Shown here in pieces: positions 35,094-55,726 of a stretch of 64,000 nucleotides of DNA. The position numbers and the translations under genes are program-made. The stretch comes from Dethiobacter alkaliphilus. GTDB lineage: Bacteria; Bacillota; Dethiobacteria; DTU022; UBA8154. Each line of letters opens with the position of its first letter. The first letter of the stretch is position 1. The stretch covers positions 38,138 to 102,137 of the forward strand of contig JAENYV010000008.1 in assembly GCA_016841605.1 (NCBI GenBank), in the 5' to 3' direction. Below the pieces are notes generated by a model. That model ran no database searches, was not told the origin of the DNA, and saw only the letters and a list, made by a program, of their open reading frames with translations.

Positions 35094-35273
35094 CTATGCA
35101 TCAAATTTTCCGCTTTCTCGATGAATTGCCCGAATAAGATGTAATTCGAACATCATTTCGTCATCGGGAAACTCTTGTTTAACTTCTTTAATCAATTTAT
35201 CTAAAATTTTCTGTTTAATATTATGTTTCCTGGCTAACTCTTGAGCATTAAAGTGTAAAGAGGTTTTTTCCAT
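35094..35273 (-). CDS. Small hypothetical protein, 59 aa
   Basis: ATG 35273 follows AAGGAGGG at a good distance; the longer frame to 35297 is less likely. The product is charged and helical (QELARKHNIKQKILDKLIKE, VKQEFPDDEMMFELHLIRA). I do not recognise a family. A short DNA string of this gene (about 35162-35185) recurs almost unchanged at 49642-49665 in the same element, beside the hicB gene. Confidence 0.55.
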   Translation of the reverse strand: MEKTSLHFNAQELARKHNIKQKILDKLIKEVKQEFPDDEMMFELHLIRAIHRESGKFDA

Positions 35274-44121: not shown

Positions 44122-44704
44122 TTAAACCTTGGAGTAGCTTGTATCTTGAGTATTTCCTCAAATTTGGTTAAATTACGTAGAAAAAGCTTCATCTTGATTG
44201 GGCGGACAAATGGCAACCAAAAACATACATAAGACGATAAATAGTAATCGGTAACCGGAAACCAATTTCTGTTTGCTTAACTAATAGCGATGCCCATTCA
44301 CTAATGGACAACATGTTCTTTTCGGAGTATCCCGAATTATGTAAATCTGATTATTACATACTGAAACAAATTAAAATTATTGAAAAAATAATTTATGGCA
44401 AACCAATATATAAAAATAGATTTAAAACAATTTTCTTCAATAGGAATTGAATAAAACTCATAAAATAGACGGGAGTGCCGATTATATCGGCACTCCCGTC
44501 TATTTTAGCCGTAAAAAGTTAATACAGATGAAACTTGAGTTTTCTTTTCTGGTTGTATGTAAACTGGTTTAGAAAACTGTTCGCCGGGTTCACGGGGTGT
44601 AAAAATTACTGCCCCATTTTCTTTTTCCTCTCAATTATCTGTTCCTTCAGCCAAAAGGTCTTCAGTAATTTAGAGCTGGTGCAAATTTTAAGGAGGTGAG
44701 AAGA
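44122..44704. other. Non-coding stretch with a perfect hairpin
   Basis: No gene is supported. The main feature is the 45-nt hairpin at 44462-44506. The last 20 bp carry the ribosome site of the next gene (AAGGAGGTGAG). Confidence 0.5.
44462..44506. terminator. Perfect 21-bp inverted repeat (terminator)
   Basis: AAAATAGACGGGAGTGCCGAT and its exact complement flank a 3-nt loop, with A- and T-rich ends. It is a strong bidirectional terminator that isolates the cassette and intron from the recombinase and mob genes. Confidence 0.85.
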
Positions 44705-45235
44705 ATGCAGACAGTAGAGCCTATTAGAGATCCGAAGAAGCTGAATGCGATAAAAAAATATTTTCGTGGCAAGAACTTGAGGGATTACGTTTTGTTTGTC
44801 CTGGGGATAAATACAGGGCTAAGGAACGGGGATCTGAAATCATTAAAAATTAGCGATGTCCAGAACGGCACCGGAAAAGTCCGTGACAGAATATACATCC
44901 ACGAGAATAAGACCGGCAAGGAGAAAACATTCCGGATCAATGAGACCGCACAGAAGGCACTGAAAGAATATCTTGCTACACGGCCAGGAGTAGAGCCGGA
45001 AGAACTGCTCTTTCCCAGCCGGGAGGGTGGCCGAGAGCTAACCAGTCAGCAGATTAGAAATATCATCCTCAGCGCAGCCAGGGCGGTCGGAGTTACAGAG
45101 CGGATCGGGGCGACAACGTTAAAGAAAACTTTTGGCTACCATGCACGAAAGAAAGGTGTAGCAGTGGAGATCTTAATGCGTATTTTTAATCACTTTTGGC
45201 CGGGAGTAACGCAAAGGTATATTGGGATTTCTTAA
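44705..45235 (+). CDS. Short tyrosine-recombinase-like protein with altered active site
   Basis: A 176-aa catalytic-domain-only member of the phage integrase family, from ATG 44705 (AAGGAGGTGAG upstream). Arg40 (NTGLRNGDL), a beta-hairpin Lys (K69 or K72), His163 (FNHFWPG) and the nucleophile Tyr172 (RYIGI) are present. The HxLR box, normally H-T-L-R-K-T-F, reads T137-T-L-K140-K-T-F, so both the His and the second catalytic Arg are replaced. Recombination activity is therefore doubtful; it may bind DNA only. Length fits the small plasmid/ICE subfamily, which lacks the N-terminal arm domain. Confidence 0.85.
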   Translation: MQTVEPIRDPKKLNAIKKYFRGKNLRDYVLFVLGINTGLRNGDLKSLKISDVQNGTGKVRDRIYIHENKTGKEKTFRINETAQKALKEYLATRPGVEPEELLFPSREGGRELTSQQIRNIILSAARAVGVTERIGATTLKKTFGYHARKKGVAVEILMRIFNHFWPGVTQRYIGIS

Positions 45236-45594: not shown

Positions 45595-45945
45595 GTGAGT
45601 GAAAATCGTCGCAGGCAATGCCAAATTTTGGTCCGTTTTTCCCAGGAAGAACTATCCATAATCAAGGTAAAAGCAGAGAAGGCAGGACTAACTGAGGCTA
45701 GTTTTCTCCGCGAATCTGCCCTGGGGAAAAAGATAGTAGCACCTTCCTTTTCCCAAGAAGAAGAAAAAATTATAAAGCGCCAAATCAAAGGTATCGGAAA
45801 CAACCTTAATCAGTTAACGAAGTTAGCCCATGAAAGAAAAATTAAAGGGGACGGTCTCGTTGGGAAAATTGATTGCTTCAAGGAGGTGACAGAAAAACTA
45901 TGGCAACTATTATGCTCGGCAATACAAAGCGAGCGGGGGCATTGA
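45595..45945 (+). CDS. mobC: MobC-like relaxosome accessory protein
   Basis: A 116-aa protein from GTG 45595 (ATGGAGGTGATATA upstream). It has a ribbon-helix-helix-like start (ILVRFSQEELSIIKVKAEKA) and the MobC core (IKGIGNNLNQLTKLAHE). MobC proteins bind oriT and help the relaxase open the strands. It overlaps the relaxase gene by 46 bp. Confidence 0.88.
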   Translation: MSENRRRQCQILVRFSQEELSIIKVKAEKAGLTEASFLRESALGKKIVAPSFSQEEEKIIKRQIKGIGNNLNQLTKLAHERKIKGDGLVGKIDCFKEVTEKLWQLLCSAIQSERGH

Positions 45946-47288
45946 TCAACTATTGCAAAAACAAAACTCAGAATATCGGAGAGAGAGACGGTTATAACAT
46001 AGACCCGGAACGAGCACAAGCGCAGATGCTTGTTACCCGCCAGATGTATCAGAAAAACGACGGTATACAGGCTCATCATGTCATCCAAAGTTTTGTTCCT
46101 GGGGAGATTCGGGACCCCCAAGAAGCAAACCGCATCGGGCGTGAACTTGCGGAGAGAATAGCTCCCGGCTTCGAAGTTGCGATATATACACATTCAGATC
46201 GAGATCACATACATAATCATCTCGTGATTAACAGTGTAAATTTTGAAACTGGGAAAAAATATCATTCAGACCGGAAACAATTAAACCGAATCAGAGATGA
46301 AAGCAACCGGCTTTGCCAGGAGCAAGGGTTAGCCAAGATTCAGAGTCATGCGAAAGAAAATTTAACAATGGCCGAATACAAACTGGCCGAGCGAGGCCAG
46401 AGGCTTTGGAAAGATGAACTCAGAACAAGCATAGAAACAGCAAAGGAAAAGACTTCAACTCTTCAGGAGATGAAGTCTTTTTTAAAGAAGACATACAACA
46501 TTGAAATGAAAATCCAAGAGAAAAACATTAGTTTTCTACATCCGGAAAAACAGAAATATTGCCGGGGTAAGACCTTGGGAAACAGCTACACGAAGGAGGC
46601 TATAGAGAATGACTATCGAGAGGGAGCGAGCCAGGTTAGAGCCGTTGAGTACGGAGAGCAGCGAAGAGACGACATCCGAGAAAGAATCCATTTCCGGCAG
46701 GCTGATGGAAGCTCTTATCCAAATCAACAGCGAGCAGACGATTATCCGCAAAGAAGTCGAGCAGGCGATGAGCCAGCTCCTGAGCTTAGCCGAGGCAGCG
46801 AACAAGGCAGAGAAAGAGCAGTTGAATTTAGTGCAGAGCGTGAAAAAATTGCTGGAAGAAGTCAGAGCGGACTTGAACGAGACGAAGCAACAAAGAGAAT
46901 TGCGGGGGGTAGAGTACATGCAAGCGAACCGGGACACGGCGGCCCGGCTGGTGGAAATTACTCAAAAATTGGAATACATAAAGAAGCCGGTCGAGAAACC
47001 GCCGCTGAAAGAAGTGCTAATGAGAACAGGAATTATCGCGATGTCGAGCATTTTGGGCGGGACAATCATGTTCCTGGTGTTCCTACTCCTGCAAGCGTAG
47101 TTAATCAATCTTGGAAAGGACTTATTAGAGCTATCGAAAAAGAACGTGCTCAGGCTGAATTACAAGCCGAACGAATGAAGATAAGCACAGCGAAGAAAGA
47201 AGAAGTACAGAAAAAACTTCCAGAAAAAGCAAAAGAAAAAATTAGAAATAGATTAGACAGCGAAGAAGAGCTTGAACCGGAAAGGTAA
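45900..47288 (+). CDS. MOBP-type relaxase (MobA/VirD2 family)
   Basis: A 462-aa relaxase from ATG 45900, preceded by AGGAGGTGAC inside mobC. The nucleophile is probably Tyr18 (ALINYCKNK). The metal-binding triad appears as H98-S-D and HIHNH (H103, H105, H107), followed by LVINSVNFETGKKYH. It should nick oriT and lead the strand into a helper's secretion channel. The C-terminal half, from about residue 235, is unusually rich in Arg, Glu, Gly and Ser with little hydrophobic pattern, because a second gene is written in another frame over the same DNA (46609-47100). Confidence 0.9.
   Translation: MATIMLGNTKRAGALINYCKNKTQNIGERDGYNIDPERAQAQMLVTRQMYQKNDGIQAHHVIQSFVPGEIRDPQEANRIGRELAERIAPGFEVAIYTHSDRDHIHNHLVINSVNFETGKKYHSDRKQLNRIRDESNRLCQEQGLAKIQSHAKENLTMAEYKLAERGQRLWKDELRTSIETAKEKTSTLQEMKSFLKKTYNIEMKIQEKNISFLHPEKQKYCRGKTLGNSYTKEAIENDYREGASQVRAVEYGEQRRDDIRERIHFRQADGSSYPNQQRADDYPQRSRAGDEPAPELSRGSEQGRERAVEFSAEREKIAGRSQSGLERDEATKRIAGGRVHASEPGHGGPAGGNYSKIGIHKEAGRETAAERSANENRNYRDVEHFGRDNHVPGVPTPASVVNQSWKGLIRAIEKERAQAELQAERMKISTAKKEEVQKKLPEKAKEKIRNRLDSEEELEPER
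46609..47100 (+). CDS. Overprinted MobB/MbeB-like coiled-coil membrane protein
   Basis: 163 codons lying wholly inside the relaxase gene in the +1 frame. ATG 46609 has AAGGAGG nine bases upstream, an ideal site. The product is helical with a long coiled coil (IRKEVEQAMSQLLSLAEAAN, VKKLLEEVRADLNETKQQ) and a C-terminal transmembrane segment (IIAMSSILGGTIMFLVFLLL). ColE1-type plasmids have the same arrangement, with mbeB/mbeD inside mbeA, where the small proteins aid relaxase stability or membrane contact. The hydrophobic tail and the ribosome site show that this is not a chance frame. Confidence 0.8.
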   Translation: MTIERERARLEPLSTESSEETTSEKESISGRLMEALIQINSEQTIIRKEVEQAMSQLLSLAEAANKAEKEQLNLVQSVKKLLEEVRADLNETKQQRELRGVEYMQANRDTAARLVEITQKLEYIKKPVEKPPLKEVLMRTGIIAMSSILGGTIMFLVFLLLQA

Positions 47289-49402: not shown

Positions 49403-49700
49403 GACATTATATCACATCCAAAGAGTCTGGAGTAAAAAAATGTGGGGCGCAATTTTTGCTAGGCTTTTTTTGCAATGGTTACCTGTTTAATATTTGTGAC
49501 GAATGTGTGAGGGCGTGTAGAGCAATTTTACTGTCGAGGGAATTGTAGTTATAACACAAAGCTGTGCACGCCTCTGCACAATTCAAAAATTCTGTTTTGT
49601 GGAAGAGCGTTTAGTTGCACCAAGCAGTTTTCTTATTTCATCATAGGGAAACTCTTGTTTTACTTTATTGCTTGGTTCAAAACATGTATCTTTCAGTTCC
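49403..49700. other. Gap downstream of hicB with a relic open frame
   Basis: On the minus strand a frame without a start codon reads VKQEFPYDEIRKLLGATKR, echoing VKQEFPDDE of the small protein at 35094-35273; the DNA at 49642-49665 and 35162-35185 is almost the same. This is probably a fragment of a second copy. Nothing else is seen. Confidence 0.4.
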
Positions 49701-54358: not shown

Positions 54359-55726
54359 ATGTACAGAAAAAACAAATTTAAAAAGGAAAATGAGAAAGGG
54401 GTGAAGAAAAATGCAGATGTAGTCTCTCTTGCTGAAGAGGAGGCAAGAGAAAAAATGACGGTTCGAAAGATATCAACGAAAAAGTATGAAGTAGCTGTGG
54501 ACACAGGGGAGCGGTATCCAAGCGGAAGAAAAAAAATAAAAAAGGAGATGGTAAATGGCAATAAGCCGGATGCACTCGAACGTGAGAAAGAATTGTTGGA
54601 GGAGGTAAAAGCACTGAGAACCGCAGTCGAACAATTGCGGCCAGTAACGGGAAATGAAAGCTCCAACAAAACATTTAGAGAAATTGCGGAGCGGTGGATC
54701 GTAGTAAAACAGCTTGAAATCAGTGAAAACACGTGGAGTCGTTATCGGGGGATTATTTATAATCATCTTGTTCCTTTTTTGGGAAAGAAAGTAATGGCAA
54801 ATATAAATATCGAAGACATCGAAGATTATTATATTGCCAAGAAAGAAATTAAACTTTCACAGCACAAGGTAATAATTGACAATATTTTCAAGTATGCAGC
54901 AAAAATTAAAAAGATAATTAGCAAGGAACATGCAAGAGATATTGAGGAAATATCGTGCCCGGCGTGGTATGAAGAAGAAATAGATTGTATTACTGACGAG
55001 AAAGAACTATCCAAAATGTTGATTAGTTTACAGAACAGTGTAGTTTTCTTGCCAACATATTTGGCCCTGGCGACGGGGGCACGGCTGGGCGAGATAATTG
55101 CGTTACAGTGGAAAGATATTGACTTCATTAAAAATACTGTCACAATCAGAAAAACTAATTTCCATAAAAAAGTTGGAAATGAATTCGTCCTCAAGAAGAA
55201 AAGCACAAAAAATAAGAATATCAGAACATTAAAGATAACCGAGAAAGACGTTGAAGTATTGCAGTATTTTCGTGAAAAGCAAAACGGCAAAGACGACGAT
55301 TACGTATGCTTAAACAGCCAGGGCAAACCACACAAGAGCAGCACGTTATCGGCAAATTTTAAGTGCAGAGCGAAAAGTAAAGGGTACGATATTAGCTTTC
55401 ATTCACTGAGACACAGCCACGGAACGATGCTTGCCTACCATTCTGCGACAGAAAAATATATCCTCTACCGTCTTGGAGATACAGATACGAGAATGGCAAA
55501 ACGTTATACCCGGATTCTTTATAATTTAGAAGATCCTCTAGCGCTTGCGGCTACCGAAAAAGTCACGAAAAATATTAGTTTTGACACAGAGAATGACACA
55601 AACTCAAAAAAACAGCTCAAAGTTGTACCAAATAAGCAGAAAACCAAAAAAAGAACCGCCCTTTTAAGTGATGTTAAAATGGGCGGTCACACCATTTCAA
55701 AATCTGGAGCCGGCAAGAGGACTTGA
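54359..55726 (+). CDS. int: Tyrosine-type integrase of the element
   Basis: A 455-aa integrase with an arm-binding N-terminus (ISTKKYEVAVDTGERYPSGR), a core-binding SAM-like domain (about 100-190) and a catalytic domain (about 210-400): Arg in TGARLGEIIALQW, Lys in KKSTKNKNIRT, FHSLRHSHGT for the HxxR box, and the nucleophile Tyr in RMAKRYTRI. The usual His/Trp before the Tyr box appears as LGD. The last 26 codons run through the tRNA terminator copy and into the 3' end of the tRNA-Thr gene, inside the 53-bp attachment core, so the gene is unchanged by excision. Confidence 0.93.
   Translation: MYRKNKFKKENEKGVKKNADVVSLAEEEAREKMTVRKISTKKYEVAVDTGERYPSGRKKIKKEMVNGNKPDALEREKELLEEVKALRTAVEQLRPVTGNESSNKTFREIAERWIVVKQLEISENTWSRYRGIIYNHLVPFLGKKVMANINIEDIEDYYIAKKEIKLSQHKVIIDNIFKYAAKIKKIISKEHARDIEEISCPAWYEEEIDCITDEKELSKMLISLQNSVVFLPTYLALATGARLGEIIALQWKDIDFIKNTVTIRKTNFHKKVGNEFVLKKKSTKNKNIRTLKITEKDVEVLQYFREKQNGKDDDYVCLNSQGKPHKSSTLSANFKCRAKSKGYDISFHSLRHSHGTMLAYHSATEKYILYRLGDTDTRMAKRYTRILYNLEDPLALAATEKVTKNISFDTENDTNSKKQLKVVPNKQKTKKRTALLSDVKMGGHTISKSGAGKRT
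55656..55686 (-). terminator. Terminator of the tRNA-Thr gene (right copy, element-borne)
   Basis: CCGCCCTTTTAA and TTAAAATGGGCGG; read leftward, it follows the tRNA by 18 nt and ends in a long T-run. It lies inside the integrase coding frame. It differs from the left copy by few bases. Confidence 0.8.

Follow-up and report, generated by a model that had tools for sequence, protein, structure and literature searches.

We analysed a stretch of 64,000 nucleotides of Dethiobacter alkaliphilus DNA (GenBank assembly GCA_016841605.1, contig JAENYV010000008.1), here called the window, which carries a mobilization (mob) region. Inside its relaxase gene, mobA, we found a second gene in the +1 frame. 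This nested gene is well supported by comparison with related loci, and we infer its function: quite probably it is the mobB of a mobC-mobA-mobB cassette of the pC221 or pKKS type, encoding a membrane-tethered rod that would help the relaxosome to reach a helper secretion channel. The nested or overlapping mobB layout is recurrent and has already been described in this relaxase family, and the window holds a fully enclosed member of this known kind.

The open frame and chance

As a preliminary description of this DNA had given, a 163-codon frame (ATG 46609-47100) lies within the relaxase frame 45900-47288, and a Shine-Dalgarno-like AAGGAGG is found ahead of its ATG, at 46593-46599, with a spacing of 9 nt. 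This ribosome-binding site (RBS) is made up of the relaxase codons for K (AAG) and E (GAG) of a Y-x-K-[E/G] motif, plus one base. The length of the frame alone is weak evidence. Synonymous codon permutation of the relaxase gave a longest +1 open frame of 164 codons or more 1054 times in 20000, and drawing of codons according to local usage did so 2295 times in 20000. Frames that had 120 codons or more and a transmembrane-like hydropathy of at least 2 arose in 120 of 20000 permutations and in 197 of 20000 draws. In a single sequence the nested frame is only moderately surprising, and it is the comparison of homologues that we regard as decisive for the reality of the gene.

The frame could be open by chance and no second protein be made, since E, R, Q, G and A codons, which keep the +1 frame open, abound at the relaxase C-terminus. 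An equally long +1 frame did appear in 5-11% of the codon-shuffled relaxases. The start, the RBS and the frame are conserved in 72 of the 118 loci examined; this, the shift in codon position in the overlap and the similarity of the nested frame where the relaxase frame has little or none, all described below, make this explanation very improbable. An antisense open reading frame at 46536-46937 (minus strand) was taken as a by-product.

Occurrence in related loci

The nested protein evolves fast, and when it was itself the query of a search, no relative came up in genome contigs or plasmids; relaxase homologues were therefore used for the survey. With the window relaxase as query, 1547 plasmid records and also many genomes were matched, and none was found in the viral contigs scanned. 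In total 118 loci were examined: 100 loci, including the window and pC221, and 18 minus-strand matches that were analysed separately. Duplicate or overlapping loci (L001, L009, L010, L016 and L121) were not counted, and pC221 was counted once, from L121. The loci were gathered by similarity to the window relaxase, and the counts describe neither a random sample nor independent loci.

In 71 of the 100 loci a +1 frame stays open for 100 codons or more where the conserved part of the relaxase ends, and 68 of these have a hydrophobic helix. The +2 frame was broken by stops within the overlap in all of the 68 loci. Nested frames were also present in 4 of the 18 minus-strand loci (L100, L103, L104, L105). 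Homologous relaxases without a conserved second frame had been named beforehand as a result that would refute the gene; a +1 frame starting from the same relaxase motif and encoding a hydrophobic helix was present in 72 of the 118 loci. Eleven of these frames are fully enclosed (the window, L015, L002, L030, L065, L092, L089, L100, L103, L104 and L105), and the other 61 extend beyond the relaxase stop.

Two loci may represent natural losses. In L032 the relaxase motif is kept with the codons AAA GAA, and there is no RBS and no nested frame. In L058 AAG GAG is kept, and the frame has only 91 codons and no membrane helix.

The start site

An RBS with at least five matching bases was found in 52 of the 68 loci with a nested frame and a hydrophobic helix, a count that is biased upward because start codons in the 100-locus survey were picked by the best RBS score. 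Codon usage at the relaxase motif gives a less biased test, for which 62 of the 71 loci were taken; L073, L055, L014, L005, L036, L038, L017, L065 and L075 were omitted for ambiguous starts or for having no membrane helix. Where the motif reads K-E, it was coded AAG GAG in 34 of 34 loci. As background, upstream in the same relaxase genes AAG accounts for 363 of 1555 Lys codons and GAG for 336 of 1239 Glu codons. Where the motif reads K-G, the codons were AAA GGA or AAA GGG in 19 of 23 loci and AAG GGG in the remaining 4 of 23, which are still RBS-like.

A +1 frameshift during relaxase translation, giving a membrane-anchored relaxase fusion and no separate protein, would agree with a nested frame that is always in +1 and ends in a membrane helix able to tether the fused relaxase. 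A stop in the nested frame stands one codon 5' of the ATG in the window, and 62 of 68 loci have one at most 10 codons 5' of the start, at a median distance of 1.5 codons. Together with the conserved start codon and its RBS, this makes frameshifting highly improbable. Separate initiation is favoured over frameshifting because of the AAG GAG codon usage at the motif and the in-frame stop 5' of the start.

Constraint on the two frames

In the +1 geometry, relaxase position 3 corresponds to nested position 2 and relaxase position 1 to nested position 3, the wobble base. Codon-position rates were determined from 13 independent, gap-free pairs of equal length above set identity limits; L073, L055, L014, L017, L065, L075 and contig-truncated loci were omitted from the rate comparisons. 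Upstream of the overlap, differences at relaxase positions 1, 2 and 3 numbered 163, 84 and 639 in 2470 codons. In the overlap they numbered 256, 138 and 136 in 1626 codons. The fastest site thus shifts from relaxase position 3 to position 1, which is the wobble base of the nested frame. In 11 of the 13 pairs, fewer changes had accumulated in the nested protein than in the relaxase.

The window's own clade is too divergent for rates, and alignment scores were used instead. The nested proteins of the window and L002, a plasmid locus of Alicyclobacillus fastidiosus, aligned with z = 15.0, and those of L002 and L015 (Paenibacillus sp. Soil522) with z = 25.1; 0 of 1000 shuffles reached either score. 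For the relaxase frame over the same DNA, in contrast, the scores were z = 3.6 (reached by 5 of 1000 shuffles) for the window and L002, and z = -0.2 (552 of 1000) for L015 and L002. These scores bear out that the relaxase product is weakly conserved over the nested stretch. Between the window and L015, likeness of the nested proteins is limited to the membrane end (z = 6.9 for the whole protein, 0.7 minus the last 30 residues). Across the family, as judged from these comparisons, constraint at the protein level is stronger on the +1 frame than on the relaxase frame of that same stretch.

The predicted protein

A helical rod with a C-terminal membrane helix had been proposed for the nested product, and both the AlphaFold2 model and hydropathy agree with it. 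The model, built from an alignment of 26 nested proteins, has a helix at residues 18-124, a break, and helices at 133-146 and 148-162, with a mean predicted local distance difference test (pLDDT) score of 83.6 and a predicted template modelling (pTM) score of 0.40. Residues 141-161 are strongly hydrophobic, with a best 19-residue hydropathy of 2.39. A motif K-x-PL...SS-x-(L/I)GG around the membrane helix is common to the window and its Paenibacillus and Alicyclobacillus relatives.

No Pfam match below E = 0.001 was obtained for the nested protein of the window. The RSF1010 MobB profile PF17511 gave E = 0.029 and 15.2 bits, below its cut-off of 27. At E values up to 1, Pfam gave no match to an MbeB or MbeD family. 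Foldseek gave no match. Sequence matches in the PDB to apolipoproteins and other helical proteins were judged to reflect coiled-coil composition, not homology, and a weak PADLOC match to ZorA (E = 0.00067) was likewise set aside as coiled coil.

The host relaxase and mobC

The 3' end of mobC overlaps the start of mobA. The Pfam Relaxase domain covers mobA residues 18-144, and by alignment residues 1 to about 235 form the conserved nuclease part. The relaxase ends in a tail, EEELEPER, that resembles the short pattern D-x-G-[LFP]-[ES]-[RL], prevalent in the family irrespective of mobB overlap, with 53 distinct tails in 68 loci. Among these 53 tails the last residue is R in 32 and L in 18, and the residue before it is E in 30 and S in 16; L092 (EDEWEM) and L031 (DGPELQ) are exceptions to the pattern. 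This arrangement suggests a relaxase built of three parts, namely a nuclease domain, an overprinted linker and a tail, and the conserved short tail may be a type IV secretion signal. A conserved word marking the origin of transfer (oriT) was sought 5' of mobC and not found, the best 12-mers occurring in 5 of 63 loci. The features of the mob genes are collected in Table 1.

Table 1. Positions of mobC, mobA and the nested gene in the window, with their parts.
Feature	Position	Strand	Basis
mobC, relaxosome accessory gene (NikA-like/MobC), 116 amino acids, GTG start	45595..45945	+	Pfam NikA-like E=5.5e-19, MobC E=1.8e-9
mobA, MobA/VirD2-like relaxase, 462 amino acids from ATG 45900	45900..47288	+	Pfam Relaxase E=1.7e-36
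Relaxase C-terminal tail EEELEPER, 3' of the nested gene	47262..47285	+	likeness to family tails
Nested gene, proposed mobB	46609..47100	+	ATG start, 163 amino acids, enclosed in mobA, in its +1 frame
AAGGAGG ribosome-binding site of the nested gene	46593..46599	+	sequence and codon test
Nested-frame stop TAG, one codon 5' of the ATG	46603..46605	+	sequence
Predicted long helix/coiled-coil rod, nested residues 18-124	46660..46980	+	AlphaFold2, pLDDT >90 over most
Predicted C-terminal transmembrane helix, nested residues 141-161	47029..47091	+	hydropathy and alignments

Relation to known mobilization cassettes

The window relaxase shares 39-47% identity with relaxases of staphylococci and Priestia whose plasmids PLSDB types as MOBP. 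The window also has other features of the cassette, namely a MobC/NikA-type gene overlapping the start of a relaxase of the same family, a +1 frame in the place of mobB with its RBS in the Y-x-K-[E/G] codons, and a product of this frame that is predicted to be helical with a C-terminal membrane helix. In the literature, pKKS49 has three partly overlapping genes mobA, mobB and mobC and pKKS966 is said to resemble it (PMC6157413, a review), pC221 mobCAB belongs to MOBP (PMC10135026), RSF1010 mobB lies within mobA in another frame (PMC2200642), and ColE1 mbeB and mbeD overlap mbeA (PMC6118388).

The likeness of pC221 to the window extends to an upstream MobC, 44% relaxase identity over the N-terminal part, and a mobB that starts in +1 from the same relaxase motif and has a C-terminal membrane segment. 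The mobB of pC221 (223 amino acids) ends 424 nt 3' of the relaxase stop, and in its product a long tail follows the strongest hydrophobic segment, whereas the window gene is fully enclosed. In pKKS966 (L007; the pKKS plasmids are from S. aureus and S. hyicus), a 182-amino-acid frame shares with the window the start motif and a single C-terminal membrane helix; its mobB extends 103 nt past the relaxase and lies on a plasmid, whereas the window copy is chromosomal. The nearest relatives, L002 on plasmid NZ_CP104069 and L015, are also fully enclosed, with nested frames of 163 and 176 amino acids and the same motif around the membrane helix as in the window.

ColE1 had been named as a parallel in the preliminary description. 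Accessory genes do overlap the relaxase gene there, and the closest counterpart by relaxase relatedness and position is instead the mobB of the pC221 and pKKS type. With two accessory genes in mbeA against one in the window, ColE1 is a parallel in layout only. The same applies to RSF1010/R1162, with mobB inside mobA in another frame; its relaxase belongs to MOBQ, a family different from that of the window. Transport signals of the R1162 relaxase reportedly need MobB (Parker and Meyer, 2007). The earlier impression that the nested layout is unusual did not hold, as it recurs in this relaxase family and overlapping mobA, mobB and mobC are described for staphylococcal plasmids (PMC6157413). Codon-level constraint or an embedded RBS of this mobB was not treated in the literature searched, from which subscription papers were largely missing.

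Weighing the assignment to mobB

The window gene is assigned to the cassette by its position and by relaxase relatedness, not as a DUF334 protein. A number of points weigh against the assignment or against the role proposed with it. MobB of pC221-type plasmids is often annotated as DUF334 (PF03904), and 11 of 45 nested proteins match this family, whereas the window protein does not. The profile of the window clade, compared with that of the Planococcus/Priestia/Enterococcus-type clade, gave 12% probability, and homology with named MobB proteins is for this reason argued from position, not sequence. The scores of the window nested protein against those of L089 and L092 lay at or little above the level of shuffled sequences, being reached by 284 and 37 of 1000 shuffles, respectively. 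In two of the 13 pairs the nested protein had not changed less than the relaxase (L056-L064, 18 against 17; L057-L068, 17 against 17). No nested frame was present at the site in 46 of the 118 loci. Most of these hold relaxases that are longer and more distantly related, or are fragments at the end of a contig; they include the fragments L063, L083, L021 and L042, the broken relaxase of L086 and long relaxases from Ruminococcus genomes. The membrane-docking role of MobB is taken over from other systems and from the anatomy of the protein.

The nested gene could also be real and co-expressed and serve in something other than transfer, for example as an entry-exclusion, membrane-stress or stability protein. 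The sequence reveals no function and library matches are weak only, which leaves room for such a role. In many genera, on plasmids as well as chromosomes, the gene goes together with the relaxase, and the plasmid literature names mobB in this cassette (PMC6157413, PMC10135026); a role outside transfer seems unlikely. Slightly less likely still is a decayed copy, in which the element would be a remnant and the gene out of use. Such decay would be in line with a single copy in the genome and with the lack of matches to the relaxase within its own genus or family, and is opposed by mobC, mobA and mobB all being intact and by the RBS and the relaxase C-terminal tail being kept.

Possible mechanism

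If the nested gene is the mobB of this cassette, ribosomes would start internally on the mobC-mobA message, so that MobB is made alongside the relaxase. The C-terminal helix of MobB would sit in the cell membrane with the helical rod, probably oligomeric, in the cytoplasm. There MobB may hold the complex of relaxase, MobC and DNA at the membrane and help to deliver it to a helper conjugative element by way of that element's coupling protein. In the relaxase itself, the overprinted part would serve as a linker under little constraint, joining the nuclease domain to the conserved short tail, which could act as the secretion signal. We suggest more tentatively, at somewhat less than even confidence, that the C-terminal third of the relaxase mainly mirrors mobB, as a passive linker whose sequence the nested membrane protein dictates and in which only the tail of about six residues is held by the relaxase frame; this would couple the levels of tether and relaxase.

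Across a large group of mobile elements of the Bacillota, internal initiation from an RBS fixed in a relaxase motif would then tie the level of the membrane tether to that of the relaxase, and full enclosure would be a repeated outcome, met in several families. A nested or overlapping mobB is easily lost in annotation, and the conserved start site offers a simple handle for finding such cassettes. The overlap would also permit clean mutants, silent in one frame, for probing MobB in Gram-positive mobilization.

Flanking genes and annotation

The mob region is flanked on both sides by ordinary-looking chromosomal genes, on a contig of 229,537 bases. A 31-nt imperfect direct repeat (28 of 31 positions identical) lies around it at 35155-35185 and 49635-49665, 14,480 nt apart, and encloses a methyltransferase, two large genes, a tyrosine recombinase of 179 amino acids and the mob genes. 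The repeats may be attachment (att) sites at either end of an integrated element some 14.5 kb long. The left copy lies within an intact frame of 67 amino acids, relatives of which were found in 4 of the 59 other genomes searched.

Near the mob genes, the segment 37736-43389 holds the methyltransferase (PADLOC MTase_II, E = 8e-82), a HATPase-domain protein with a weak match to a type II restriction enzyme, and a gene of 575 amino acids without significant match. By its gene content it looks like a defence locus of the restriction-modification type. The short tyrosine recombinase gene (44696-45235) is likewise near the mob genes of the window, and similar-looking or annotated integrases stand near related relaxases on two plasmids (L006, 177-608; NZ_CP104069, 37389-37958). 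A second, longer tyrosine integrase with a SAM-like domain at 54359-55726, about 4.7 kb past the right repeat, possibly belongs to another element.

On the plasmids NZ_CP104069 (L002, 1501-2838) and NZ_CP073813 (L004, 1501-2406), the gene tables list the nested or overlapping frame, as a hypothetical protein in the case of NZ_CP104069, and no relaxase. Both plasmids are typed non-mobilizable by PLSDB.
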